IMG/VR virus record: IMGVR_UViG_3300046810_000558 | Span: 1-42,116 of that record | Length of the DNA: 42,116 bases | Direction: 5' to 3' (one strand) | Source of the DNA: a virus | Shown here: in pieces, positions 3,731-31,274 of the stretch | Position numbering within the stretch: position 1 is the stretch's first letter | How the letters are laid out: every line of letters begins with the position of its first letter | Notes under the pieces: model-generated | What the model saw: the letters and a program-made list of their open reading frames with translations, nothing else | Databases searched by the model: none | What the model was told of the DNA's origin: nothing | Translations under genes and position numbers: made by a program

Positions 3731-4720
3731 TTAGAATTCATATCCAGAACAGTAAATAGTAAATTGATATGCCGTTGGGCCATTTATCGAGGTGTAATAA
3801 TAGATTGTTTGAGCTGTGATCATTTGAATAGGTATTGCAGCTGAGTCATATGATACTGCTGATTGGCCTGTTCCAACGTATATACCCCCTGCCGTTCTTC
3901 CTATGCCGTTGGCATCCGCAGACAATGCAAACCCTATTGACCCAGTTCCTGCAGATGCCCTTGATCGGACATAAATGAAGCAATTTCTTGCATTCCGTGG
4001 TACTGCAGATGAGATGTTAAGTGCCGTAGCTGTGCTTGGTGTGGATGTTGAATCAAGCAACGTAATTTGATTAGTGCGAATTGCCCTTTGGAACTGATAT
4101 CCTGGGATAAGATTCCGGTTTCCATCAGTTCCCCACACCGAAACTAGAGCAGATGCAGTGAAGCCCGAAGGCATATTTGGGCCGCTGTAGACTTCCGGTG
4201 CAATTGTGGATGTTGCATCCACGCCCAGCAGAGCTACGTTGGCATTAGTTGGGTTATAGATGACGTAAACAGCAAGAAATCCGGTGACTGGTGCACTACC
4301 CGTGGCCATCCCACCCACTCCGACTGTGGTTAAAGTGATACGCGCATTAACACTTTTAAGCCGAAACTGACTTCCCCCCAGCGCGGTGTTAACGATTAAC
4401 TCATCCGCATAGAAGTCAGCAACAGTTGATGCTGTAGCAACTGTCATTCTTGCGTTGCGCGACTGTCCAACAATACCTGGATAATTAACAGGTTGTTTAA
4501 ATAGCAAATTTAATGCTGCAAGAAGTTGATTATTTTTGCTTTTGTCAAGACTTACACCAGCCCCTTCTATTACATAAGCGATTTCTTCCTGAAGAGAATC
4601 AAAAAAGTTTTCATCCAATGCGGTTGGCAACTCACCGGTCTGAGGGTTACCACCAGTAAACCCATTTTTACCTGCGCCAAATTTATCTACCTGTGCAGTT
4701 GGGGTATCAATACGATGCAT
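3731..4720 (-). CDS. Tail fibre protein
   Basis: A 329-residue protein whose first ~80 residues (MHRIDTPTAQVDKFGAGKNGFTGGNPQTGELPT in two blocks, then LQEEIAYVIEGAG) are the conserved baseplate-attachment domain of Mu S- and P2 H-type fibres. The rest is low-complexity, Ser/Thr/Gly/Ala-rich beta structure, as expected for a trimeric shaft and receptor-binding tip. It follows the gp48-like gene by two bases, in Mu order. It is shorter than Mu S, so only a compact tip is present. No invertase or alternative tip is seen nearby. Confidence 0.85.
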   Translation of the reverse strand: MHRIDTPTAQVDKFGAGKNGFTGGNPQTGELPTALDENFFDSLQEEIAYVIEGAGVSLDKSKNNQLLAALNLLFKQPVNYPGIVGQSRNARMTVATASTVADFYADELIVNTALGGSQFRLKSVNARITLTTVGVGGMATGSAPVTGFLAVYVIYNPTNANVALLGVDATSTIAPEVYSGPNMPSGFTASALVSVWGTDGNRNLIPGYQFQRAIRTNQITLLDSTSTPSTATALNISSAVPRNARNCFIYVRSRASAGTGSIGFALSADANGIGRTAGGIYVGTGQSAVSYDSAAIPIQMITAQTIYYYTSINGPTAYQFTIYCSGYEF

Positions 4721-4722
4721 AT

Positions 4723-5304
4723 TTACTCCGGATATCTGAAAATAACGTAGGTATGTGATGGAGATAATTTTTCAAGCACGCACTCCGCAACCGTGTCTCC
4801 CCAGGTTCGTAGACTATCGGTGCAGTTGCTGATCGCAGTCATCGAGTTAATTTGCGTTGAGGACGGCATATTTACTTGCCAGTAATAACGCCAGTCATCT
4901 GTATATAACGACTCGGTACAGACAGAATTGCAGGTAAACTGGCTATTGTTGTAACGTGTGATTGTCGCATCCGCGTAGCCCAGCGCTTCAAGCTGAGCTA
5001 GATAAAATGCCTCATTGATGCCACCGGGAAGATTTAATTTTGCATCCAGTCGCTGCCGCCGCTGCTGAAGGGTCTGTACACCTGCGGGAGCACAGCTATC
5101 AGGCAGACCGCTGATTGCTTCATAACGGTCAATAAGTTCGGTAACGGACCTGGGGTCTATTTCCAGCATCAGGGCATCCCCCCTCCCATGAACTGCCGCA
5201 AGTGAGGGCGCAAGGCCGGTCAGCAGCAGGTCTTCAGAATCCCATGCAGGACCTCTCGGCAATAATGCGCCAAGCATCTGCCGGTACTGTGCCGTTAAGT
5301 CCAT
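4723..5304 (-). CDS. Mu gp48-like baseplate protein (YmfQ/DUF2313)
   Basis: A 193-residue protein with the hallmark start [16 protein letters not shown], an [14 protein letters not shown] block and a Cys-containing C-terminal half. This is the YmfQ/DUF2313 family that includes Mu gp48 and links the baseplate wedge to the fibres. Its start overlaps the end of the gp47-like gene by 10 bp, so they are translationally coupled. Confidence 0.85.
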
Positions 5305-6362
5305 GAGATTGTCCCTACCACGCCCACTTCACCTTTGCCGATGCTGATATCAGCCGCCGGACTGACCAGCGTATGGCTGTACTCACCCGAAGCGATACTG
5401 ATTGCTTCGCTGATACGTGAAAGTTTAAGTACGCCTTCCGGCACGCCATCACGCAGCATCATTGAGAGAAGCTCTGCCTCGACGGCATAGCGCACCGCTG
5501 TGGTATCCGGGTTTAACCTAATCTGAAAGTCAACGACATGTGGTGTTGGCGCAAACACATAAATATCCGCACCGGCCACAGGTGCCAGCGGTTCAATATA
5601 GGCCTTAACGGCGGCAACGGTTGCTGCGCCAGGGATCGGATTAATCAGGTCGCTGTTTGCCACCATCACGCCCACCGTTCCCCGACCGCTCCAGTGCCGG
5701 TAAGTCCAGGCGCGGGTAATGCCTGCCACCTCTTTGGCCCACACCTCGTAATCACCGTCCGCTCCACCCTGCGGGGTCCAGTACCATCGCTCAATAACGC
5801 GCGCGCGCCAGACTTCTAAATCTTCGATGTCAGCGCCGCCCTGTATGCTGTCCGCCACGCCAGCAGAGGTCAGACCCGTAACAGGACTGACAAGCCGCAT
5901 AGTCAGCCCGTCATCCGTGTTGCCAGCCTTACCAGCCGTATTGCAGATAACCGGCACACGCAGAACGCCACCCGCTGATGAAGCTTTTTCAGTCGTGGTG
6001 AACGAAGTCAGATCATCACGCTGAATTACCACTCCGGCAGGAATGGGGATGCCGTCGGTGGCAACGTCCCACCTTGCAAACCCTGTTGCAAATGTCGCAG
6101 CCTTACGGGGGCAGCGTTTCATATTTGCATGACGCTCCAACCAGTCCTCTTCAGCCAAATCTGGCAAAAGGTTCCGCGCCAGATAATCGATGTAACCATA
6201 AACGGTATGCACCGCGGCCGCCTGTACGCGCCCGTAAACCTCAGCATCAGTTCTCCTTAGAGCAGCAAGGGTTGTGTCAGCAGCGAGGCGGGTAAGAATG
6301 TCGTTTCGAATTGTGGTGATTAACTGAGGGAGTGTCGGGCGGGTAAATCCACTGTCAGCCAT
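5295..6362 (-). CDS. Baseplate wedge protein J / Mu gp47-like
   Basis: A protein of about 355 residues with the [11 protein letters not shown]-terminus and the [23 protein letters not shown] and WTYRHWSG motifs of the baseplate J/gp47 family. It forms the wedge of contractile tails. ATG 6362 is preferred over a start at 6383 because GGAGTG lies at proper spacing and the overlap with the previous gene is then 8 bp. Confidence 0.9.
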
Positions 6363-21979: not shown

Positions 21980-22318
21980 TCACTTGCGCCAGTGCGACTG
22001 TGGGTCCAATGGCATCCCGTTCTCATCGCACCCTATGACGTGACCGCGCTTCTCTTCACGCTGCTTGGTCGAGTCGTGATGCTGCTTGCAGAGTGACTGC
22101 CAGTTGACCTTGTCCCAGAAGAGCTTCTGAGCCTTTGCTATCTCATCCTGCTTACCGCCGTTTATGGCTTCTTTCAGCCTGTGTGGCTTGATATGGTCAA
22201 CGACCGCAGCTGCCACCGCTCTGCCCTGCCGGTGGCACATAACGCAGAGAGGGTGAGACTTCAGGAATGACAGCCTGGTCTTGTCCCAGCGACTGTTATA
22301 GATGCGTGGTTCGGACAT
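21980..22318 (-). CDS. HNH endonuclease (packaging-associated)
   Basis: A 112-residue HNH protein: CVMCHRQGR (first Cys pair), VVDHIKPHR (catalytic His), then NWQSLCKQHHDSTKQ (Asn and second His). HNH proteins placed directly before terminase genes in HK97-type phages cooperate with the terminase in cos cleavage. Its place, length and motifs fit that role rather than a homing nuclease. Confidence 0.9.
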   Translation of the reverse strand: MSEPRIYNSRWDKTRLSFLKSHPLCVMCHRQGRAVAAAVVDHIKPHRLKEAINGGKQDEIAKAQKLFWDKVNWQSLCKQHHDSTKQREEKRGHVIGCDENGMPLDPQSHWRK

Positions 22319-22435
22319 CAGAGTTTCCTGCTAACTGGATGTGTTTAACCCTCGGCAATAGTGAGGTCATCAGCCGATGATTCGATGTGTTTATGCTGAA
22401 AAGTGAACTCAATGAATGCACTTTTCAGAACAAAA

Positions 22436-22457
22436 TAAAAAACCGCCCGAAGGCGGT
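22436..22457 (-). terminator. Intrinsic terminator before HNH gene
   Basis: On the minus strand ACCGCC-TTCG-GGCGGT forms a 6-bp stem with a stable TTCG tetraloop and is followed by at least six T residues. It lies 10 bp after the stop of the gene at 22468, so late transcription must read through it to reach packaging genes. Confidence 0.85.
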
Positions 22458-22467
22458 AATTATTTTA

Positions 22468-22659
22468 TTATTTCTTTAGGGCTTCTTGTATGGCGTCAGC
22501 TGCCTTAGATAAATCATTTTTTATAGAATCAAGCGCATGCATTGTTCCGCTTGAACCAGCTCCTGCCTTAGCTATTTCCAACGCTGCCTGTACTGCCAAT
22601 AAACGCTGGGTTCTCTCGTCAGTGGTGAGGGGGCCACTCTTGTAATAACCTTCTAACAT
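22468..22659 (-). CDS. Small helical protein of unknown function (63 aa)
   Basis: Starts at ATG 22659, with GGGAGA six bases upstream; an in-frame upstream ATG at 22689 lacks such a site. The protein begins MLEGYYKSGPLTTDERTQRL and is otherwise helical and Ala/Lys-rich, with no Cys and no membrane segment. It lies between the spanin region and packaging, ending at an intrinsic terminator. I do not recognise it. Confidence 0.6.
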   Translation of the reverse strand: MLEGYYKSGPLTTDERTQRLLAVQAALEIAKAGAGSSGTMHALDSIKNDLSKAADAIQEALKK

Positions 22660-22741
22660 AAAAATCTCCCTTTCATAAAGTGAGTTCACACATTATCGTC
22701 GGGATCAACCAAAGTGAAGATAAATTTATATTTTGGTTAGT

Positions 22742-22861
22742 AATCAGAATGGAATTCGAACCCATGGACCCATCGGTATCGGCTACCGCGCCACCTCACG
22801 GGTCTGTATCGGCCTCACGCTTCGTCCGGATCGGATTAACCGACATCTCGCGCACCTGATT
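22742..22861 (-). ncRNA. tRNA-like structured RNA
   Basis: On the minus strand the 120-nt segment opens with AATCAGG and closes with TCTGATT, a 7-bp acceptor-like stem. Just before the closing arm is a T-arm: ATGGG, loop TTCGAAT (fits TTCRANY), TCCAT. Inside are GACCC/GGGTC and CGGTA/TACCG stems and TCGG/CCGA. It is too long for a normal tRNA and has no clear anticodon loop or encoded CCA. It may be a decayed tRNA with an insertion, or a tRNA mimic. The 245-bp gap around it holds no other gene. Confidence 0.4.
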
Positions 22862-22933
22862 ATTTTTATAATACGCCAGCTTTGAAGCGCTTCACAGCGA
22901 GGCTAACTGTTATAACTTGTCGGAGGATTTGTC

Positions 22934-23122
22934 TTAAGAAGGATCAGCGGGTGAAAGCTCACCTTCTTCAAACCACGCATCGACCGCACGGCCATCAGCA
23001 GCCAAATAGTGAATGAAGTACTGATTCGGGCCTGCATTGTATTCAGCGCGTGCCTTTACATAACCTTCCTCACTGCTAATGGTGACAACTACAACTTGGC
23101 CAATTACATGCTTAAAGCTCAT
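22934..23122 (-). CDS. Small phage protein of unknown function (62 aa)
   Basis: A 62-residue protein starting MSFKHVIGQVVVVTISSEEG with a strand-rich sequence (YFIHYLAADGRAVDAWFEEGEL). This resembles a small SH3/KOW-like barrel. A GGTAGGG stretch precedes the ATG. It follows Rz on the same strand. No family is recognised with confidence. Confidence 0.65.
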   Translation of the reverse strand: MSFKHVIGQVVVVTISSEEGYVKARAEYNAGPNQYFIHYLAADGRAVDAWFEEGELSPADPS

Positions 23123-23169
23123 TTACCCTACCTCTCTTGATGTAAATAGTTCTCTTTTTGCAGGGCTGA

Positions 23170-23655
23170 TTACTTCATGCACTGCTCAATGATGTACTCC
23201 TGCAATCCAGCTATTTTCTTTCCGGCAACTTCGATTCGCTCTCTGAGGGTGAAATAATCCCGTTGAGCGGAGTCAATAAGTCGGGGCCTGGCTGCATCAT
23301 CCACGCTGGCGGTGCCGGAGGTGTCGTTCTGACAGGTTGCGTTGAGCTGCAACCGACGCTTGCCAGCAGTAACATCATGCTTAAGCTGATCGATAGTGGC
23401 TTTAGCATCCGCTAACTCCTTTGTGTATTTGGCATCGAGCGCCGCCACACTCTTCTGGCGTCTCTGCATGTCATCAATGGTTTCCTGTCGGCTGTCTGCA
23501 AGGTTTTGGGCCGTTACAGCAAGGCTCTTTTGCCTGTCAGCTGATGCCTTGTAGTTGTTAGCTGACATGGCAAAGCCCATGCACAGGAACATCAAACCAG
23601 CCACAAGAACAGCACGCCAGTTATCTACCAGCCACTCCCCGGCGAACGCCATCAT
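23170..23655 (-). CDS. Rz-like inner-membrane spanin
   Basis: A 161-residue protein with one N-terminal membrane helix (residues ~11-30, WRAVLVAGLMFLCMGFAM) and a long coiled-coil periplasmic domain rich in Lys, Gln and Ala. This is the i-spanin (Rz) layout. It fuses inner and outer membranes with Rz1 after the wall is cut. Its start overlaps the endolysin stop by 4 bp and Rz1 is nested inside it. Confidence 0.92.
   Translation of the reverse strand: MMAFAGEWLVDNWRAVLVAGLMFLCMGFAMSANNYKASADRQKSLAVTAQNLADSRQETIDDMQRRQKSVAALDAKYTKELADAKATIDQLKHDVTAGKRRLQLNATCQNDTSGTASVDDAARPRLIDSAQRDYFTLRERIEVAGKKIAGLQEYIIEQCMK
23211..23408 (-). CDS. Rz1-like outer-membrane spanin lipoprotein
   Basis: A 65-residue lipoprotein fully nested in the Rz gene in another frame. 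It has a signal sequence MLKPLSISLSMMLLLASVGC with a lipobox Cys at residue 20, followed by a Pro-rich mature part (TTPPAPPAWMMQPGPDLL). Nesting, lipobox and Pro content are those of lambda-type Rz1. Confidence 0.92.
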   Translation of the reverse strand: MLKPLSISLSMMLLLASVGCSSTQPVRTTPPAPPAWMMQPGPDLLTPLNGIISPSESESKLPERK

Positions 23656-24278
23656 ACGAGTACCGATTTAGCCAGGTTATAACGCTTAGTCCGGTCTTCA
23701 ATGCCGTTCTGCCCACCGTTGATGACCTGAGTGCATTTGATAATCGCACCGGCCCACTGAAGGCAACCTTTCGCCACGAAGAACCATGCCGCCGATCGGG
23801 CTGCGTTCTGGTCCTGCTCTATCAACTCCGGGTTACTCACCAAATCCAGCTTGATGCCGTTACCCGTGGCGCGGTAATTATCCAAGAACGTTGTCTGGAT
23901 AAGCCCGCCACCGCGATACTTCCATCCATCGCCGGGCTGGTTGTTGCCGAAGCGTTTCTGGTACACCAGATTGGCAATCGCCCGCTGCCGTTCTAATGGC
24001 AGAGCATTCTCGCCGGGCTTACGTCCAAGCATCAGGGCCTGGTCTTTGGTAAGCCTTGCCGGCACGAACGTGGCAATCAACGCCTGAACGCTGTAGTTGA
24101 AGTTCTCGCGAGCGGCAGTGACCCCATTTGATTCATGCCCCAACTGCGCGATGAACATTGCTTTTTCCAGCGGGCTGTTAATCCCAAACTCAGTCATTGC
24201 CGCATCAATATGCGGATACCAGCGCGCAGCTAATCCGGCGCTGATGCCAGCCGCCCGTTGAAATTGGTTTAGGTTCAT
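23652..24278 (-). CDS. Endolysin, glycoside hydrolase family 19
   Basis: A 208-residue chitinase-like lysozyme. Catalytic Glu49 lies in QLGHESNG; YRGGGLIQTT and NPELIEQ are further conserved blocks. It cleaves the glycan backbone of peptidoglycan. There is no signal peptide or signal-arrest segment, so it depends on holin pores. It overlaps the holin-like gene by 4 bp. Confidence 0.93.
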   Translation of the reverse strand: MNLNQFQRAAGISAGLAARWYPHIDAAMTEFGINSPLEKAMFIAQLGHESNGVTAARENFNYSVQALIATFVPARLTKDQALMLGRKPGENALPLERQRAIANLVYQKRFGNNQPGDGWKYRGGGLIQTTFLDNYRATGNGIKLDLVSNPELIEQDQNAARSAAWFFVAKGCLQWAGAIIKCTQVINGGQNGIEDRTKRYNLAKSVLV

Positions 24279-24559
24279 TGTGGTCTCAATACATGAAGTA
24301 GCTGAGCCACATTCCCCCGTGACCGGAAGACGGCAGCGCAGATGATGAGGTTAATAGCCACGGCGGCCCAGTGGGGCGAACCGTAACAATGGAAGAAGAA
24401 CCGGAAAGGCACCGTCGCATACGACAGGACCAGCAGATATGCCAGCCAGGATGCCCACCAGTTATGTTTTGCTCCCGGCTTACGGAATGCCATTAACCGG
24501 ACAACAATCGCAGTGCACGTAATCACGTTTGCGATCAGTAGCGGATCACTTATTGCCAT
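24275..24559 (-). CDS. Holin-like membrane protein (3 TM)
   Basis: A 94-residue protein with three hydrophobic segments (PLLIANVITCTAIVVRLMAF, WASWLAYLLVLSYATVPF, WAAVAINLIICAAVF) and a basic C-terminus, the layout of the phage holin 3 group. ATG 24559 is chosen: GAGGGGG lies just upstream and the start overlaps the preceding gene's end. Either this or the next gene upstream forms the lysis pore, the other acting as partner or antiholin. Confidence 0.8.
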   Translation of the reverse strand: MAISDPLLIANVITCTAIVVRLMAFRKPGAKHNWWASWLAYLLVLSYATVPFRFFFHCYGSPHWAAVAINLIICAAVFRSRGNVAQLLHVLRPQ

Positions 24560-24929
24560 TGGTTCCCCCTCTCCAACGCTGCAGCCAGGTGGTGGGGTCT
24601 TGCTCAAGGAAGAAGGTTAGTGTCTTGATGGCCACAGCAGAGATGAGTACAGCCCCAAGAGAATCAAGAGGCTTATCACTGTAGCCAGACCACAACGACA
24701 ACTTTGAACCAACCAACCCAGCACCGTAGATGCCAACGAAGTATGAAACGAGAAAATAGGCTGCACGCCGTATCAGAGTCAGGTCAGCAGCAGTAGCAAC
24801 GTAGAACACTGCACCGGCGAACGCACCGAATACGACACCATAATCAGTGCCAGTAAACAGACCAAAGATGCTCGCTCCCGTTAACCCGGCCGCCGTGACA
24901 ACAACTCCTCCTGATAGCGGATCGGACAT
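24546..24929 (-). CDS. Putative holin / antiholin membrane protein
   Basis: A 127-residue protein starting MSDPLSGGVVVTAAGLTGAS with three to four hydrophobic segments (FGAFAGAVFYVATAADLTLIRR, YFLVSYFVGIYGAGLVG, LGAVLISAVAIKTLTFFLEQ) and a short charged tail. Proteins with this start are annotated as putative holins in many enterobacterial prophages. It is the first gene of the lysis cassette, after an intrinsic terminator. Confidence 0.75.
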   Translation of the reverse strand: MSDPLSGGVVVTAAGLTGASIFGLFTGTDYGVVFGAFAGAVFYVATAADLTLIRRAAYFLVSYFVGIYGAGLVGSKLSLWSGYSDKPLDSLGAVLISAVAIKTLTFFLEQDPTTWLQRWRGGTNGNK

Positions 24930-24973: not shown

Positions 24974-24999
24974 AAAAAAAGCCACCCGGGTTGGGTGGC
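24974..24999 (-). terminator. Intrinsic terminator upstream of lysis genes
   Basis: GCCACCC and GGGTGGC form a 7-bp stem with a 5-base loop, followed on the minus strand by seven T residues. It ends transcription from the 25021-26528 cassette, so lysis genes behind it should need antitermination by Q or their own promoter. Confidence 0.88.
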
Positions 25000-25020
25000 C
25001 TAATGATGGTTTAGTAGTAT

Positions 25021-25596
25021 TTAAAGTGATGTCTGATGGAACCTGACTGATAAGAAATACAGACCTAACAAAGTAGTTGTTATGATATTTATCAATATCA
25101 GTGAGTATAAACCTATGAAAATGGTCTTAAACGCCCATAAAAAATCAGGTGATATCAATTCGCCAAGTCCTGAAGAAACAGTCTTCCCTACAAGTATTGA
25201 AATCAGTCCTAAGCAAAACAAAAAGAAGCTTGCTAGGGCTAGATATCCAAATAGATAGCAAACGAACCTTCTTCGAGTTAGCTCCACTTTCAATTTGGTA
25301 CCACGGAATTTTTCAACTAAGGTTGGCGCATCACCAGCCATCACCTCATCAATGGTCGAGTTAGAAAAAGTGGATACGGCAGCAAGAGCTGCAATATAAA
25401 AGCCAATTAGAACTTGGAGTAAGCCATTGACTTGCACCAAAAGACCGGTGGTACCAACTAATGGAATTTGGTTTGGATAGAAATAATATACACACATGAC
25501 TATTACCGCCCCAATTAATGGGATTCTATAGTCGTACCATCTCTTTTCTTCATGTTTTATAAGGAGATAGCTTAACGGTGAAAAAAGTTTCATCAC
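25021..25596 (-). CDS. Unrecognised four-helix membrane protein of cassette
   Basis: A 191-residue protein with four hydrophobic segments: about residues 26-41 (RIPLIGAVIVMCVYYFYP), 52-77 (LLVQVNGLLQVLIGFYIAAL), 110-138 (RFVCYLFGYLALASFFLFCL) and 158-185 (TIFIGLYSLILINIITTTLL). Charged soluble loops separate the second and third. No signal peptide or enzyme motif is seen. It starts 11 bp after the cytosolic gene at 25608 and ends before an intrinsic terminator. Both genes are AT-rich against their surroundings and occupy the usual accessory site between Q and lysis. A membrane effector paired with a soluble sensor is one reading (as in two-gene anti-phage systems such as Kiwa), but I see no homology that proves it. 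Confidence 0.75.
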   Translation of the reverse strand: MMKLFSPLSYLLIKHEEKRWYDYRIPLIGAVIVMCVYYFYPNQIPLVGTTGLLVQVNGLLQVLIGFYIAALAAVSTFSNSTIDEVMAGDAPTLVEKFRGTKLKVELTRRRFVCYLFGYLALASFFLFCLGLISILVGKTVSSGLGELISPDFLWAFKTIFIGLYSLILINIITTTLLGLYFLSVRFHQTSL

Positions 25597-25607
25597 GAAA
25601 CCTCAAC

Positions 25608-26528
25608 TTATAACAGTCCCTTCATTTTTGTCTCAAGCTCTTGATGTATAGTGCTTTCGCATTGATTAATTCCATTACCCAAGAGAACTTTTTCGCTTTT
25701 TGTGAAGAGCTTAGTAGCAGCATCTTCGTTTCTATCCAGGTCCAAACTTGCCTGTCTTCCGTCTTTCGAGTAGCTGATCGAAACTTTTGTAAAGCCAGAT
25801 TTTTGACCTTTTCTTCTAAGTATTTCTAACAACCTTTTTTTATCCCTGAGCGGCGGCTGTTTGATTATTTTATATCTAACAGACCGCTCAGCAAGTTCAG
25901 TGTAATCTGTTTTGTCCATGCCACCTTGCTTACGTGTGCTAACCAGTTTTACGTTGTGTAATCTGGCCCCACTAAGGGTCTCCAACAGTGTTTGTGACCC
26001 GTGAGAAAAGATTGCTAACTTAGGCTTCAACTGGCACATGGCTTTGGTTGCAGGGTTTCGAAATTCTGAACCTGTGAATGCTTCGCGTAACATTGCGTTC
26101 AAAAAAGGCTCAATAATGGATTTACTAATCCCTGGGACTGATTCCACCAACGTTTTATAGTGATCTGCAGTATGTTGAACTACAGCGGTAGAGATAATTA
26201 TATGGCTTGAAACGGCGATCCCTTCTCCTGCGAGCTTTGGTTCAACCCTTAGGACACCTGTGTTCAACTCACCAAAAACTGGGTCAGACCCATTCTGGTC
26301 ACAGAGTTGGAGCAGTAGTACGGCTTCACTATCGCCCACATTATATGTCATTGCCGATATACGAACTGCACGTGTGCGGGTGTTATAGAGTCTTACTGCG
26401 TTCCCTGCATCCACAAGCATCTTCAACCGATTCAAGGTATCCGATATTGGAATATCAGGTGCTGCTGCATGAGTTGGATTGAAGGCAAAGTCGAAAAATG
26501 ACACCCATCTTTCATTGGTTGATAGCAC
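25608..26528 (-). CDS. Unrecognised soluble protein of cassette (306 aa)
   Basis: A 306-residue soluble protein beginning at a GTG (26528) with GAAAGGG six bases upstream. The N-terminal half is mixed alpha/beta (WVSFFDFAF, then RAVRISAMTYN and EPKLAGEGIAVSSHIIISTAVVQHTADHY in adjoining blocks). The C-terminal ~100 residues are basic (KIIKQPPLRDKKRLLEILRRKGQKSG), which would suit nucleic-acid contact. No catalytic signature is evident. It may belong to one of the uncharacterised phage DUF families of about 300 residues, but I cannot name it. It forms a two-gene unit with the membrane protein downstream. Confidence 0.75.
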   Translation of the reverse strand: MLSTNERWVSFFDFAFNPTHAAAPDIPISDTLNRLKMLVDAGNAVRLYNTRTRAVRISAMTYNVGDSEAVLLLQLCDQNGSDPVFGELNTGVLRVEPKLAGEGIAVSSHIIISTAVVQHTADHYKTLVESVPGISKSIIEPFLNAMLREAFTGSEFRNPATKAMCQLKPKLAIFSHGSQTLLETLSGARLHNVKLVSTRKQGGMDKTDYTELAERSVRYKIIKQPPLRDKKRLLEILRRKGQKSGFTKVSISYSKDGRQASLDLDRNEDAATKLFTKSEKVLLGNGINQCESTIHQELETKMKGLL

Positions 26529-26598
26529 AGAGAGACCCTTTCTGTTTATGGTTTTCCTGCTAACAACTTAAACTAAATGAAAAACAATTTGAAATACT

Positions 26599-26634
26599 TT
26601 AAGCTCAAACCACATTAAAAAGGTTTGAGCTTAA
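26599..26634. promoter_or_regulatory. Perfect 13-bp inverted repeat before the cassette
   Basis: TTAAGCTCAAACC and GGTTTGAGCTTAA are perfect inverted arms separated by 10 bases. There is no T run on either strand, so it is either an operator or a structured RNA element. It lies in the 140-bp gap between Q and the 25608 gene, where lambda has its late promoter and Q-utilisation site. Confidence 0.6.
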
Positions 26635-26668
26635 GCTGTGTGACAAAGTAACCACTCTTAACACAGTA

Positions 26669-27097
26669 TCAGGCTAATTTCGTAACGAACATCCTTCTAT
26701 AAATCTTTTTTGAAATTGTTTCCTGCGTCCAGCTATCCATCTCAAGTTCATAGCCGGTCATGATTATGCATGCATCTATGAACGTCTCCGCGATCATCAT
26801 CTGCTGTCTAACTTTACCCTCGGAGCATTTTTTCCATCTGGCGATAGTCGATTTCGATACGTCGTACATGTAATGAAGCATAACCAGTTCAAGTTCATCT
26901 TCACGTTTAGCTTTCTTCAGCATTCCGACAGCTGTGTCGATAATCATTCCGTCATTATCACTGCAGGAGAGTCTCGTTTTTTTGCTTGGCGGGAGAAGGC
27001 TTTTAAACATGGCGCTGGTAGGTGACCAGCCCACACTGCTACCTTCCTTCCCGGCCCAGCCGCCCCAACGTTCAAGCACTAATTGAATATCACGCAT
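26669..27097 (-). CDS. Late antiterminator Q-like protein
   Basis: A 142-residue protein starting MRDIQLVLERWGGWA, the signature start of the Q antiterminator family found in many lambdoid phages (phage 82/933W-related type). A C-terminal helix-turn-helix-like segment follows (LHYMYDVSKSTIARWKKCSEG). It loads on RNA polymerase at the late promoter and lets it pass terminators, several of which occur downstream. Gene position just before lysis is canonical. The AGCGGAGACA linker precedes it. Confidence 0.9.
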   Translation of the reverse strand: MRDIQLVLERWGGWAGKEGSSVGWSPTSAMFKSLLPPSKKTRLSCSDNDGMIIDTAVGMLKKAKREDELELVMLHYMYDVSKSTIARWKKCSEGKVRQQMMIAETFIDACIIMTGYELEMDSWTQETISKKIYRRMFVTKLA

Positions 27098-27111: not shown

Positions 27112-28116
27112 TTATTTTTTGCCCGTGGCGATCACGCCCAGTGACAGGGCTCTGTCGAGCGTTCGCAAAAGCATTTCTGGCTGAGTGCCGTACTTAGCTT
27201 CAAACGACCGCATGTCCGCATGAAGTTCATCGTGATGCGCTCTGCATAGCGGTATCACGAATAAGTCATGCGCTTTGGTTCCCGTTCCACCCTGGCCGTA
27301 ACCAATCAGGTGATGTGGATCATCAGCCGGCTTGCCACAACAAAGACAAGGCTGAGCTTTTGCCCACCGGGTATACTTTTCGTTGGTCCAGCGACGACGC
27401 TTGGGCCTCAACAGGAATGTTTCTGGTGTCTCCGGATCAATGGCCATCTCCAATACCTGCTTAGCCTGTTCCTCAAGAATACTGGTTGCCGTTCTTGAAG
27501 GGACAATCTCGGACTCCCGCATTACTCCAGTAGCTATCTTTTCTGCTCCCATCTTCAGAACGCGGCGCGCTGCCGGTTCAGGCATCAGGTCGATAACATT
27601 TTTGGTAGCGGCCCACCAGCAGAGTTCTGGAAGCGTCAGCTGATGCCCTTCTGGCAGATGAAAAGCCACCAGCGCTGACTGAATAACCCACTTAGCGGCG
27701 TTGGCCTGAGATATTGCCAGGAGCTTTGGAAGCGAGGCCATCTCACGCAGTTCATTATCGTGATGCCAGCACAACCTGACCGCGCCCTCTTCCGTTCTCA
27801 AGATGGCGTGATCTGTGGAGTGCCAGTCGCCGTGCCACTGACAGCCGTTGGTCTCTTTGAGATAATTCTCCAGCGCATCAATCCCGCCAGCGGCATTTAT
27901 TACCCTCTGATGTGTGAAGAACGACAATATGGCAGGATCGTCCAGTAGCGGCTGGCCTACATCAGCAACTGCCCCGGACGCATGACCATGCATGTATTCA
28001 GGTTCGCTGCTGATAAGGATTCGCCGTTGGTGAAACAAAGGCATTAGCTCCCGGCCGGGCTTCAACAACACCACGCCGAGATCGGACTGTACGCAGGGCT
28101 TGAGTAAAGCTCGCAT
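27112..28116 (-). CDS. DUF968 protein with C-terminal HNH-like domain
   Basis: A 334-residue protein. The C-terminal ~90 residues have CLCCG, DDPHHLIGYGQGGTG and IPLCRAHHDELH, the HNH-like zinc fold of DUF968 proteins. The N-terminal ~220 residues are the long form seen in lambdoid early regions next to Q. A nuclease or recombination-accessory role is inferred, since such genes sit where lambda has nin-region recombination genes. ATG 28116 is preferred, with GGGG six bases upstream. Confidence 0.8.
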   Translation of the reverse strand: MRALLKPCVQSDLGVVLLKPGRELMPLFHQRRILISSEPEYMHGHASGAVADVGQPLLDDPAILSFFTHQRVINAAGGIDALENYLKETNGCQWHGDWHSTDHAILRTEEGAVRLCWHHDNELREMASLPKLLAISQANAAKWVIQSALVAFHLPEGHQLTLPELCWWAATKNVIDLMPEPAARRVLKMGAEKIATGVMRESEIVPSRTATSILEEQAKQVLEMAIDPETPETFLLRPKRRRWTNEKYTRWAKAQPCLCCGKPADDPHHLIGYGQGGTGTKAHDLFVIPLCRAHHDELHADMRSFEAKYGTQPEMLLRTLDRALSLGVIATGKK

Positions 28117-28125
28117 CAATACCCC

Positions 28126-28929
28126 TTATGCAGCGCTGGAGCTGACCATTAAACGGATAAGTTCTTGTGCCTTCGTGTTGTAGAAGTGAGGCTGCGTCTC
28201 TCTTGGGTTGTTGGGGCTGGTGATGTTCTTTCCGAACGCCAACCCTTTACTGGTAATGGACCAGAACAGCTTCACTCCGTCGCATGCACGTGATGAATTG
28301 CTTGGCCGCGACATGCGCTCAACAATCCCAATCTCTTTTAAGCGTTGGAATGCATCAGCTGTGGGCAATTTGATGCCATGTTTCATCAGCAGTGTGGTCA
28401 GAGCCATTGTCGGACGACTTGACCCATCTACCGAGTCGGATGGTGCGTCGATAGCGTATGAGGGCATCATGTTTGGCAGACCAGCGAATTCCTGAAGCTT
28501 TTGGTAAGCGCCCAGCTTTGAAGAGTTTGAGAAGTTCAGCATGCGTGATGCTGATTCAAGGAGGATTACTCCCGCCTGCACCTGGTCAGAACGCTGGCTA
28601 ATTTGTTGCCCGGTTACTACTGCGTCGAAGGTTCGGATCACCTTCAGATTGAATACCGCGCTGATCCACATGGCGTACGCATACACCAGTTCTTTGCTGA
28701 CGTAGGTTCCCTGACTGGGTCCGCCACGAATCGACTCCACCGACCCGATGCTCAAATCTGAGCAACGGTCGATTTCTGCACACAGTGTCTTGATGTTCTC
28801 CTGACGGAAGAAGTTCGCCGGCTTATGCCGATCCTCTCCACCAGCAGCACGGTGTAAATCATTCAGGCAATAGCGCCCTGAGTTATCCTGGCGTACAGAA
28901 ACGCCATCAATTACGAGTAACTGATTCAT
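28126..28929 (-). CDS. KilA-N domain protein
   Basis: A 267-residue protein with an N-terminal KilA-N DNA-binding domain: DGVSVRQDNSGRYCLNDLHRAAGG, then KPANFFRQENIKTL, VSKELVYAYAMWISAVFNLKVI (adjoining blocks, residues ~8-110). The C-terminal half is a separate helical domain with a KHGIKLPTADAFQRLKEIGIV segment like those of antirepressor C-termini. Such proteins act as antirepressors or DNA-binding regulators in phages. The AGCGGAGACA linker precedes its ATG. Confidence 0.85.
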   Translation of the reverse strand: MNQLLVIDGVSVRQDNSGRYCLNDLHRAAGGEDRHKPANFFRQENIKTLCAEIDRCSDLSIGSVESIRGGPSQGTYVSKELVYAYAMWISAVFNLKVIRTFDAVVTGQQISQRSDQVQAGVILLESASRMLNFSNSSKLGAYQKLQEFAGLPNMMPSYAIDAPSDSVDGSSRPTMALTTLLMKHGIKLPTADAFQRLKEIGIVERMSRPSNSSRACDGVKLFWSITSKGLAFGKNITSPNNPRETQPHFYNTKAQELIRLMVSSSAA

Positions 28930-29009: not shown

Positions 29010-29324
29010 TTATTCCGACAACGTGACATCGTTGTTTTTACGATGAAATTCATTGATCGTTACCTCCGCCTTACCGTGACATGTCACGCCACCCCATTCC
29101 ACTATCATCCGCTTAATCTAGTTGTCATCAGTCCACACTTCGGCATGAGTCAGGCTATCGAATAAGGCTTTCTGGAAGTTGACTAAATCACGCATAGCGC
29201 GGGGCGGTGGATAGAGGATGACGTGGTTATCAACTCCATTAGTGATCTGCTGAGGTTTTCGCTTAAGTTGCTCCCGTACAGATTCGATGGCATTCACAAT
29301 GATTATTCGCGTGGGATTGATCAC
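29010..29324 (-). pseudogene. rusA: Broken RusA-like Holliday junction resolvase
   Basis: The frame from 29324 encodes YPPPRAMRDLVNFQKALFDSLTHAEVWTDDN, matching the RusA core RRDLDNLQKAxFDALTKAGxWxDD (split here into two blocks). It then meets TAG at 29118-29120. Translation past the TAG continues in frame as IKRMIVEWGG and AEVTINEF, which is the normal RusA C-terminus, to a TAA at 29010. Family members have Q-I at this point, so CAG to TAG is the simple explanation. The second catalytic Asp of DLDN is Val here, and the N-terminal PPSxN region is missing. The gene is almost certainly inactive. Confidence 0.75.
29076..29087. repeat. Palindrome GTGACATGTCAC, copy 1
   Basis: A perfect 12-bp palindrome inside the rusA remnant. 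The same 12 bases recur at 40682-40693 near the other end of the early region. Confidence 0.6.
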
Positions 29325-29665
29325 CCATCCGTTTTTACTTGAGCACCGTTCGCAAATTATTAGGTCATCTTCAACATAAAAATCGTGACAAAACTAATGC
29401 GCAACTTTAATGCAAAAGCTGAAATTATGCTGTTTTCCAAACCTGGTATGCGAAGAGTAAACGCTGAAAATAGGCAACCCAGAAGTCTCAAAAATCGAAT
29501 GGGACATTTAAGCGGGACACTTACAAGCTAAGTAGATTGCCATAATATAAGGGATTAATGATGGACACTTACCGAAATTAATCTATAAACATAATTAGGT
29601 ATGTATATGGAAAGCCACAATACCATTATCAATAAGTCAAGAAAGCCACATTTTCTTTGCGGAAA
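29325..29665. other. AT-rich gap between rusA remnant and HNH gene
   Basis: About 340 bp without a convincing gene. The minus-strand frame of the rusA remnant stays open to about 29395 and reads FCHDFYVEDDLIICERCSS, with Cys/His spacing reminiscent of a zinc finger but no start codon with a ribosome site. The rest is AT-rich and may hold decayed sequence from the replaced rusA 5' end. Confidence 0.4.
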
Positions 29666-30694
29666 TTAAATATCCCTTCCTTGCTTCAACAGGCCCTTCA
29701 CTTTTTGGAAGGTGTAATAACCATTGGAAACTAATGATGCGTGATTTATTCTTCGTCTTACCCTAGCTTTATCCTGCATTCCAAAAATTACTTCCCTACG
29801 TAATGAAGGTTCCAATCCTTCCAACTCTTCTTCAGTGAAGAATTGAGCATTGAGGCTAGCTTTATTACGCTTTGCTATCCCAGCCACAAGATATTCAGCT
29901 CTTTCCATGATGCTATGAATAGCTTTATCTCCTAATATGCTATTACATTCCGGGCAAGATGGTATTGTATGACCTCTTCCATAATGGCGGCTACCTCCCC
30001 GCCATGCCATACTTATGACATGATCGCGTTGTAATCCTGAGCAGTTATCGCCACAATAAATACAGTGATGGTTATTGTTCGTATCATTCAAATCAGACAA
30101 ATCAACATCTTCTAATTCATTATATGACTCTGAATTATCTCCTTGATCTTCAACTCCTTCAATGATTGGCAGTGCTTCCACATCAATCAAAGGTGTTTCA
30201 TCTTCAAAAATCACTTCTCCCCCTAACGTTGGATCTTCACTTTTAATCCTTTTTGTAACATCTACTTTATTATCTCCACTAGCATTCTGCCAAAACTCCT
30301 CATCACTTAATTCTTCACCTTCCTGATCTCGAAGCATAGAACCATACATAGGTTTTGTGTTTATAGTTACTGATTTTGCGGTTATTAATTTATTAGAAAT
30401 TGGAACAGCGCTATAAACATACCCGTTTTTTTTAGATGTTATTTCGCATGTGTGAGTATCTGTTGAGTAGAATGATTTGAAAGCTTCTAGTGCGTATTCT
30501 TCTGTGATGAAAACACCATCAACCAAACCAAGCGAATTTTTAGCCATTGCAAAACCTATCAAATGAGAAATGTAAAGGGAGAGTCTACCCTTGTCAAAAA
30601 CCATCCCCTTAGATTGAAGAATGGCCAAACCCTCTTGTATATTATAACTTAAAAATGCTCCCCGGTACCATATCGATACTGCTGTCACACTCAT
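29666..30694 (-). CDS. HNH endonuclease with novel N-terminus, AT-rich
   Basis: About 342 residues if started at ATG 30694. The C-terminal half has an HNH zinc fold: CIYCGDNCSGLQRDHVISMAW, then SCPECNSILGDK (Cys pairs, catalytic Asp-His, Asn). The N-terminal ~190 residues match nothing I know and include a very acidic linker (EGVEDQGDNSESYNELEDVD). The gene is far richer in A and T than its neighbours and starts inside the MT-A70 gene by ~50 bp. The ribosome site for 30694 is poor, so the true start is uncertain. It looks like a recently acquired nuclease, perhaps mobile. Confidence 0.65.
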   Translation of the reverse strand: MSVTAVSIWYRGAFLSYNIQEGLAILQSKGMVFDKGRLSLYISHLIGFAMAKNSLGLVDGVFITEEYALEAFKSFYSTDTHTCEITSKKNGYVYSAVPISNKLITAKSVTINTKPMYGSMLRDQEGEELSDEEFWQNASGDNKVDVTKRIKSEDPTLGGEVIFEDETPLIDVEALPIIEGVEDQGDNSESYNELEDVDLSDLNDTNNNHHCIYCGDNCSGLQRDHVISMAWRGGSRHYGRGHTIPSCPECNSILGDKAIHSIMERAEYLVAGIAKRNKASLNAQFFTEEELEGLEPSLRREVIFGMQDKARVRRRINHASLVSNGYYTFQKVKGLLKQGRDI

Positions 30695-31274
30695 TGCCCC
30701 ATATATCCCATCCCTCTGACGGGCGGCGGGCGAACAGTTCAATGCGTGGCACATCGCCATACAGCTCTTCAAGCCTGAATCTGGCCTCTGCTGGTTTGGT
30801 ACTGTGTTCACCCTGGCATGAGTAGATCACCTGCTTTACCGAACGGCTGCTTCGCTCCAGCCCCGTTCCCCGGACTGCCACCAGCGCAGACTCCTGATTT
30901 CCCCGCGTGTAATTGCCGGGATTCATCCGGGTCTCAGCATTAAGCATGTCCAGCAGCTCGGTGAAGTCGAAGATAGTCTGCTCGGTGATCGCCTTATTGA
31001 AACGCTGCTCAGCCAGGGGGTTAAACTTCACCCATGTGAAGCATAACATCTGCCGGACACTGAACCCCCACGCCTCAGCCAGTTCACGCGCCTCTTCAAC
31101 GTGTGTCCCGGTGTACCACATCACCAGAACAGAGTTATCTTCAGCAAGCTCCCACACGGGGAGCCTCTTCAGTTGGGTCAGGTTCATGGTGTTGTAATGG
31201 CCATCGGCGGCACCGCGGCTAACGGTGTTGCCATACTGCCAGGGTGGATCAGCGTAGATGAGCCCGTATTTCAT
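30642..31274 (-). CDS. MT-A70 family adenine methyltransferase
   Basis: A 210-residue DNA N6-adenine methylase with the DPPW catalytic motif at residues 9-12 (IYADPPWQYG), a VLVMWYTG strand and the C-terminal ELFARRPSEGWDIWGNE block. Phage MT-A70 enzymes modify phage DNA and can protect it from host restriction. It overlaps the ParB-like gene by 4 bp. The last seven residues differ from the usual end, where the HNH gene begins. Confidence 0.9.
   Translation of the reverse strand: MKYGLIYADPPWQYGNTVSRGAADGHYNTMNLTQLKRLPVWELAEDNSVLVMWYTGTHVEEARELAEAWGFSVRQMLCFTWVKFNPLAEQRFNKAITEQTIFDFTELLDMLNAETRMNPGNYTRGNQESALVAVRGTGLERSSRSVKQVIYSCQGEHSTKPAEARFRLEELYGDVPRIELFARRPSEGWDIWGNECDSSIDMVPGSIFKL

Follow-up and report, generated by a model that had tools for sequence, protein, structure and literature searches.

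A gene pair between Q and the holin genes of a viral genome is a relative of RexABpp and a probable superinfection-exclusion module

We analysed a stretch of viral DNA of 42,116 bases, classed as a virus record by IMG/VR and referred to here as the window. Two genes, A and B, lie between the gene of antiterminator Q and the holin genes. In the direction of transcription, the features of this locus are as follows.

26669-27097, minus strand: antiterminator Q (PF06530, 1.4e-40), upstream of gene A; context, outside the system
26529-26668, minus strand: leader between Q and gene A, with a 13-base perfect inverted repeat (26599-26611 with 26622-26634)
25608-26528, minus strand: gene A, RexApp/PDC-M53A-like soluble protein of 306 aa, GTG start
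25021-25596, minus strand: gene B, RexBpp/PDC-M53B-like membrane protein of 191 aa, GTG start
24979-25001, minus strand: intrinsic terminator of 9 pairs, behind gene B and before the holin gene
24546-24929, minus strand: holin (PF16931, 2.7e-34), downstream of gene B; context, outside the system

The preliminary description of this DNA had presented A and B as a co-directional pair separated by 11 bp, AT-rich against its neighbours, closed by a terminator and placed at an accessory (moron) site between Q and lysis. All of these points were borne out. Both open reading frames are on the minus strand, 11 bases apart, and the GC content of the pair is 0.41 (0.43 for A and 0.38 for B), against 0.54 (23652-24929) and 0.53 (27112-28929) in the neighbours and 0.51 in the whole window. 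Besides the holin listed above, a second holin (PF05449, 3.3e-21) and an endolysin-type protein with a chitinase-class match (23652-24278; PF00182, 7.9e-8) are encoded downstream. The closing terminator is found at 25001-24979, in a region where the scan returned three terminators in total against a shuffle mean of 2.4, i.e. no excess. Gene B probably starts at the ATG at 25593, giving a protein of 190 aa, as its close relatives (190 aa) begin at this codon, the next one after the GTG.

By its profile matches, the pair is a member of the PADLOC candidate system PDC-M53. Protein A matches the PDC-M53A model (PDLC04696, 7e-22) with residues 5-306 of 306, and protein B the PDC-M53B model (PDLC04699, 2.7e-48) with residues 2-188 of 191. 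Both matches are thus near full length, and no difference from the system was found. PDC-M53 is a candidate name, and no mechanism is stated in the model tables. The strong PHROGs matches of the pair have no function attached, Pfam and NCBIfam returned no named family above the curated cut-offs for either protein, and Pfam gave one stray match among 117 relatives of A. The term 'PDC-M53' did not occur in the literature searched (most subscription journals and bioRxiv preprints lay outside its scope), and PMC12894663 names neither PADLOC nor PDC.

The latter paper, published in January 2026 in Sci Rep, describes RexABpp (PP_5643/PP_5644), a gene pair of the Pseudomonas putida prophage P1 with an experimentally demonstrated anti-phage function. 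Defence needs both genes (PMC12894663). RexApp forms dimers and its DNA binding is non-specific, whereas RexBpp associates with itself and has four predicted helices in the membrane (PMC12894663). When RexApp is overexpressed, RexBpp halts growth and the membranes of a subpopulation turn leaky (PMC12894663). The authors report an HHpred probability of 98.19 between RexApp and lambda RexA, and their discussion counts only five described RexAB-like systems (PMC12894663).

A locus on a 52,459-base contig (L185) appears to be RexABpp itself. We infer this from its gene order, from the mass of its A protein and from seven published residues of RexBpp, of which one does not fit. Its B protein carries W25, F35, L55, S145, G153 and Y181 as published for RexBpp (six of seven), while the published T103 is a D, with a T standing at 102. 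None of 1794 open reading frames outside the B family matches more than three of the seven residues, and B-family members at the same offset match 0 to 5. The mass of the L185 A protein, 36,644 Da, fits the published 37.5 kDa once a His6 tag is included (PMC12894663). Before the pair lie an S24/HTH repressor and then a 137-aa HIRAN-domain open reading frame and a 78-aa one, the same gene order as in P1, where two genes separate the repressor from PP_5643 (PMC12894663). On PADLOC, the L185 proteins match PDC-M53A (8.4e-157) and M53B (2.8e-72).

The window pair can be tied to L185 by profiles. A seven-row A profile, containing the window protein and no Pseudomonas row, found the L185 A protein with 99.6 bits, and the matching B profile found its B protein with 150.5 bits. 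Directly compared, the B proteins share 31% identity (blastp E 9e-23), and the A proteins only 22% over 123 aligned residues (E 7e-5). With hhalign, a wider A alignment, which includes close relatives of L185, matched the L185 A protein over 314 columns with a probability of 100. RexABpp, taken as L185, and the window pair share full-length profile homology, along with a prophage-borne location and a soluble A protein followed by a membrane protein B. They differ in their sites: RexABpp lies downstream of a CI-like repressor, whereas the window pair lies between Q and the holins.

Protein A had been described as soluble with a basic C-terminus, and this description fits. None of its 306 residues lies in a stretch above the membrane threshold used (hydropathy maximum 1.54), and the C-terminal 100 residues have a net charge of +7. 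The AlphaFold model of A (mean pLDDT 89.5, pTM 0.74) gave nothing at E < 0.001 against the PDB with Foldseek, and a PDB sequence search with the A family profile returned weak matches only (best E 0.36). In a second look with VIA-align, lambda RexA (8twq_B) ranked first (206 residues aligned, rmsd 17.3), with a Z of 6.5 that falls under the level of 8 below which, by the program's own note, a match can be due to chance. Eleven of the 12 entries with a Z of at least 5 are RexA, RdgC or Iml3/CENP-N-type proteins, and RexA has been grouped with RdgC, IML3 and CHL4 (PMC11077077). Several of the alignments span residues ~3 to 306 with merely 108-134 residues aligned, which is consistent with the split globular domain of RexA (PMC11077077); the rmsd of 17.3 perhaps reflects domains placed differently. 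Since a Z below 8 is possibly chance, we regard the RexA-like fold of A as supportive and unproven. The predicted product of gene A is a DNA-binding infection sensor with a RexA/RdgC-like fold. The model also matched four unnamed phage proteins in BFVD (E 4e-12 to 2e-9, 10-12% identity), from which no function was gained and which may form a further branch of this fold.

Gene B had been proposed to encode a four-helix membrane protein. Three of the helices appear as clear hydropathy peaks (55-69, 119-135 and 160-176), and the AlphaFold model (pLDDT 92.9, pTM 0.88) has long helices at 16-39, 52-76, 108-146 and 150-183, so that the fourth helix (16-39), which is not among the clear peaks, comes from the model. 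An alignment of 124 rows shows conservation of GFYIAALAA in helix 2 and of LTRRRF ahead of helix 3; the rows of six annotated loci were left out of both the A and the B alignment. Foldseek of the B model against the PDB gave nothing at E < 0.001, and the PDB sequence search with the B family profile gave weak matches only (best E 0.039). VIA-align returned other types of helical protein for B (best Z 8.2), and these were set aside. By analogy with RexBpp, B is predicted to be a membrane-damaging effector.

The two genes are strictly paired. A search with B retrieved 135 viral stretches, reduced to the best 80 for the analysis, and 73 genome loci. Together with the window and six annotated records, found via the pair, A or B, this made 160 loci, many of the viral ones near-duplicates. 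With the A profile, A was found directly upstream of B and co-directional at 152 loci, with a median gap of 4 bases, and this number rises to 154 of 160 once two Acinetobacter loci with a diverged M53A upstream are added. At three of the remaining loci (L009, L055 and L158) B starts less than 300 bases from the sequence start, too near to tell. At three others (L112, L118 and L127) no A was found beside B. The distances among A proteins and among B proteins are congruent (Mantel r 0.814 over 110 loci; highest of 500 permutations 0.086). Two proteins that are both conserved and stay paired indicate more than chance. The two outcomes that would have spoken against a defence reading, a characterised non-defence family for both proteins and a lack of co-occurrence, were both looked for, and neither was found.

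The Acinetobacter pair (L159/L160, 6808-8549) is much diverged, with an A protein of 376 aa (M53A 2.5e-6) and a B protein matching M53B at 7e-16 in L159; the upstream open reading frame of L160 is identical to that of L159. In L112 (7288-8537), the M53B-type gene without A adjoins a gene for a 211-aa protein that looks membrane-bound by eye.

Close pairs are present at the same site between Q and lysis in Salmonella phage F1055 and in an E. coli E7476 prophage. Shigella phage SfII carries a more distant pair, inverted, between Q and the holin gene (L005, 3827-5441), and the opposite direction means that this pair presumably has its own promoter. Other more distant pairs lie on a Sulfitobacter plasmid, beside a type ISP restriction enzyme, and near the end of Vibrio corticovirus-like elements (L003, 11436-13002; L004, 11753-13298). 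In the Vibrio elements, no rightward unit follows the pair, and a single leftward gene closes the element; this is an uncommon site for a defence cassette. At the DNA level, only one of 5426 complete E. coli genomes has the pair.

The genes next to the pair were also counted by family, in counts that have no background set and in which one protein may fall into several families. Among 116 neighbours at 62 viral loci, PHROGs repressors and regulators are foremost, with a few Q and holins, in agreement with the counts of upstream repressor and Q genes given below. For the 137 nearest neighbours at 71 genome loci, the best 25 of 95 PADLOC families include PbeA (6), MADS mad2 (4), type IIG and type I restriction-methylation (3 each), and SoFic, Mokosh and others (2 each). 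The best 25 of 110 Pfam families at the genome loci include ResIII and DEAD (8 each), Helicase_C (6), resolvase, S24 and HTH_3 (4 each) and type ISP (3 members). Within these limits, the matches to type I, IIG and ISP restriction enzymes, Mokosh, MADS and PbeA speak for the defence reading.

The terminator behind B recurs in relatives. It was detected within 100 bases behind B at all 22 loci chosen for this comparison (21 with Q upstream and L013, some of them near-identical), with 0.3 expected from shuffles. A further intrinsic terminator lies 76-82 bases before A at 12 of the 22 loci (0.1 expected), and these 12 loci lead us to expect the promoter of the cassette behind it. In the window leader (26529-26668), neither an upstream terminator nor a promoter was found. 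The terminator behind the window pair, together with several relatives that are flanked by terminators at either end, suggests that the cassette is a self-contained moron with its own promoter, expressed in the lysogen. The upstream comparison covers the loci other than L023 (3868-5988), where gene A is split; the inserted open reading frame (4450-5430, 326 aa) is transposase-like by eye, and B is open.

Taken together, the window pair, as a member of the RexABpp/PDC-M53 family, is probably a module of RexAB type that serves abortive infection (superinfection exclusion). This reading builds on what is established here, namely the family membership of both proteins, their strict pairing, the four-helix model of B and the predicted RexA-like fold of A. 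The anti-phage role of the window copy would follow by homology to RexABpp. The preliminary description had read the genes as an exclusion module with a sensor and a membrane effector, which stands as far as homology goes. It had also called the system undescribed, which does not stand, because the pair matches PDC-M53 in PADLOC and the anti-phage function of a homologous pair, RexABpp, has been demonstrated (PMC12894663). This copy is a new relative within a widespread family and not a new system. Its site is best read as a late-gene moron position, not one beside a CI repressor.

By analogy with RexABpp, a dimer of A would clamp DNA or nucleoprotein produced by an infecting phage. DNA-bound A would then change shape and activate B, oligomers of B would breach the inner membrane, and growth would stop ahead of progeny production. 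The low identity of A, the one misfitting residue in L185 as the presumed RexABpp, the non-significant lambda profiles, the Foldseek search of the PDB with nothing at E < 0.001, the Z of 6.5 to RexA and the lack of a nearby CI repressor are points against the exclusion reading. For the mechanism, PMC12894663 adds that no RexApp-RexBpp contact was seen in the two-hybrid assay, that trans-complementation failed, and that no depolarization occurred.

Lambda RexA/RexB (PF15969/PF15968) resembles the window pair in gene order, in combining a soluble and a membrane protein, and in the RexA-like fold predicted for A. RexB is shorter, with 144 aa versus 191 aa for B, and the lambda rex genes are part of the CI operon, whereas the gene upstream of the window pair, which is outside such an operon, is Q. 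Neither the Pfam nor the PADLOC models of RexA and RexB matched the window pair at E <= 1. Comparisons of A with RexA and of B with RexB by hhalign were not significant, with shallow lambda alignments (5 and 9 rows for RexA, 3 rows for RexB). In three genomes, neither the RexA model (PF15969) nor the controls of that search gave a match. Sbash gp30/gp31, CarolAnn gp44/gp43 and Butters gp30/gp31 are likewise two-gene RexAB-like exclusion systems of prophages (PMC12894663, PMC11077077). These three are from actinobacteriophages and are likened here by their published description.

Alternatively, the pair could regulate the life cycle of its own phage, with A, like lambda RexA, influencing the choice between lysis and lysogeny or the late transcription near Q, and exclusion being a by-product. 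Lambda RexA biases the CI-Cro switch (PMC11077077), and a CI-type S24/HTH repressor lies upstream at 29 of the 80 viral loci and 12 of the 73 in genomes. Q was found upstream at 15 and 3 of these loci, respectively (three Q queries and an iterated repressor profile, within 2.5 kb and on the same strand). We nevertheless consider this role unlikely. RexApp left the expression of the P1 repressor gene unchanged (PMC12894663). The window copy itself has Q upstream, and the iterated S24/HTH profile found no repressor within 2.5 kb. Moreover, a plasmid carries the pair next to a type ISP enzyme, and in genomes it is found next to defence genes.

A role in addiction, in which A restrains the toxin B and the prophage is stabilised by this toxin-antitoxin pair, would agree with the toxicity of activated RexBpp, and with the Butters pair, whose effector and restraint roles are reversed relative to lambda (PMC12894663). 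This is very unlikely, however, as more A activates B in RexABpp instead of restraining it, and strains that lack only A were obtained (PMC12894663).

The position on the holin side would be explained if B were an additional holin, or an antiholin, under the control of A, and in the window a membrane protein does directly precede two holin genes. Such a lysis accessory is highly improbable. The cassette looks like an insulated moron, with a terminator behind B at all 22 chosen loci, and the SfII pair is inverted. In addition, three holin queries, which miss other types, found holins within 2.5 kb downstream at no more than 14 of the 80 viral loci and 1 of the 73 in genomes.

Kiwa, a lead of the preliminary description, also couples a soluble protein of ~300 residues to a membrane protein and is similar in protein sizes, but a diverged KwaA/KwaB system is scarcely conceivable and was rejected, because the window pair has no KwaB (PF16162) match in Pfam at E <= 1, hhalign of single sequences, a weak test, gave probabilities of 0.2 per cent for A against one KwaB and 0.3 per cent for B against the 193-aa open reading frame before KwaB in L201, and the gene order is opposite, with that open reading frame, taken as KwaA, preceding KwaB and the soluble gene standing first here.

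Tying PDC-M53 to RexABpp puts a concrete prediction in place of an 'unknown cassette' at this locus. It also provides a testable mechanism for a family of which the searches retrieved 135 stretches of viral DNA and 73 genome loci. With only five RexAB-like systems described, homologs clonable in E. coli K-12 would help to settle what the sensors detect. On a wider scale, PDC-M53 and lambda RexAB might be branches of an ancient superfamily, in Proteobacteria and mobile elements, that joins a sensor of RexA/RdgC fold to a membrane effector. Its enterobacterial branch, including the window, would then have moved out of the CI operon and turned into an insulated late-region moron. We put this forward as a tentative and rather doubtful scenario. 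A move from the CI operon to a late-gene moron may mean that the pair answers another trigger or time of infection, for example by keeping out co-infecting phages or those that come at about the time of prophage induction. It would also bring new material to the long-standing question of what is sensed in T4 rII exclusion.

The A/B pair is not the only AT-rich part of the window, as further patches lie at 22,250-23,250 and 29,250-30,750. The second of these (29250-30811) holds a minus-strand open reading frame of 381 aa (29666-30811), for which Pfam gave no match at 0.001. Its C-terminus matches phrog_36777 (3e-15), phage proteins of unknown function, and phrog_2214 (8e-5), which consists of HNH endonucleases.
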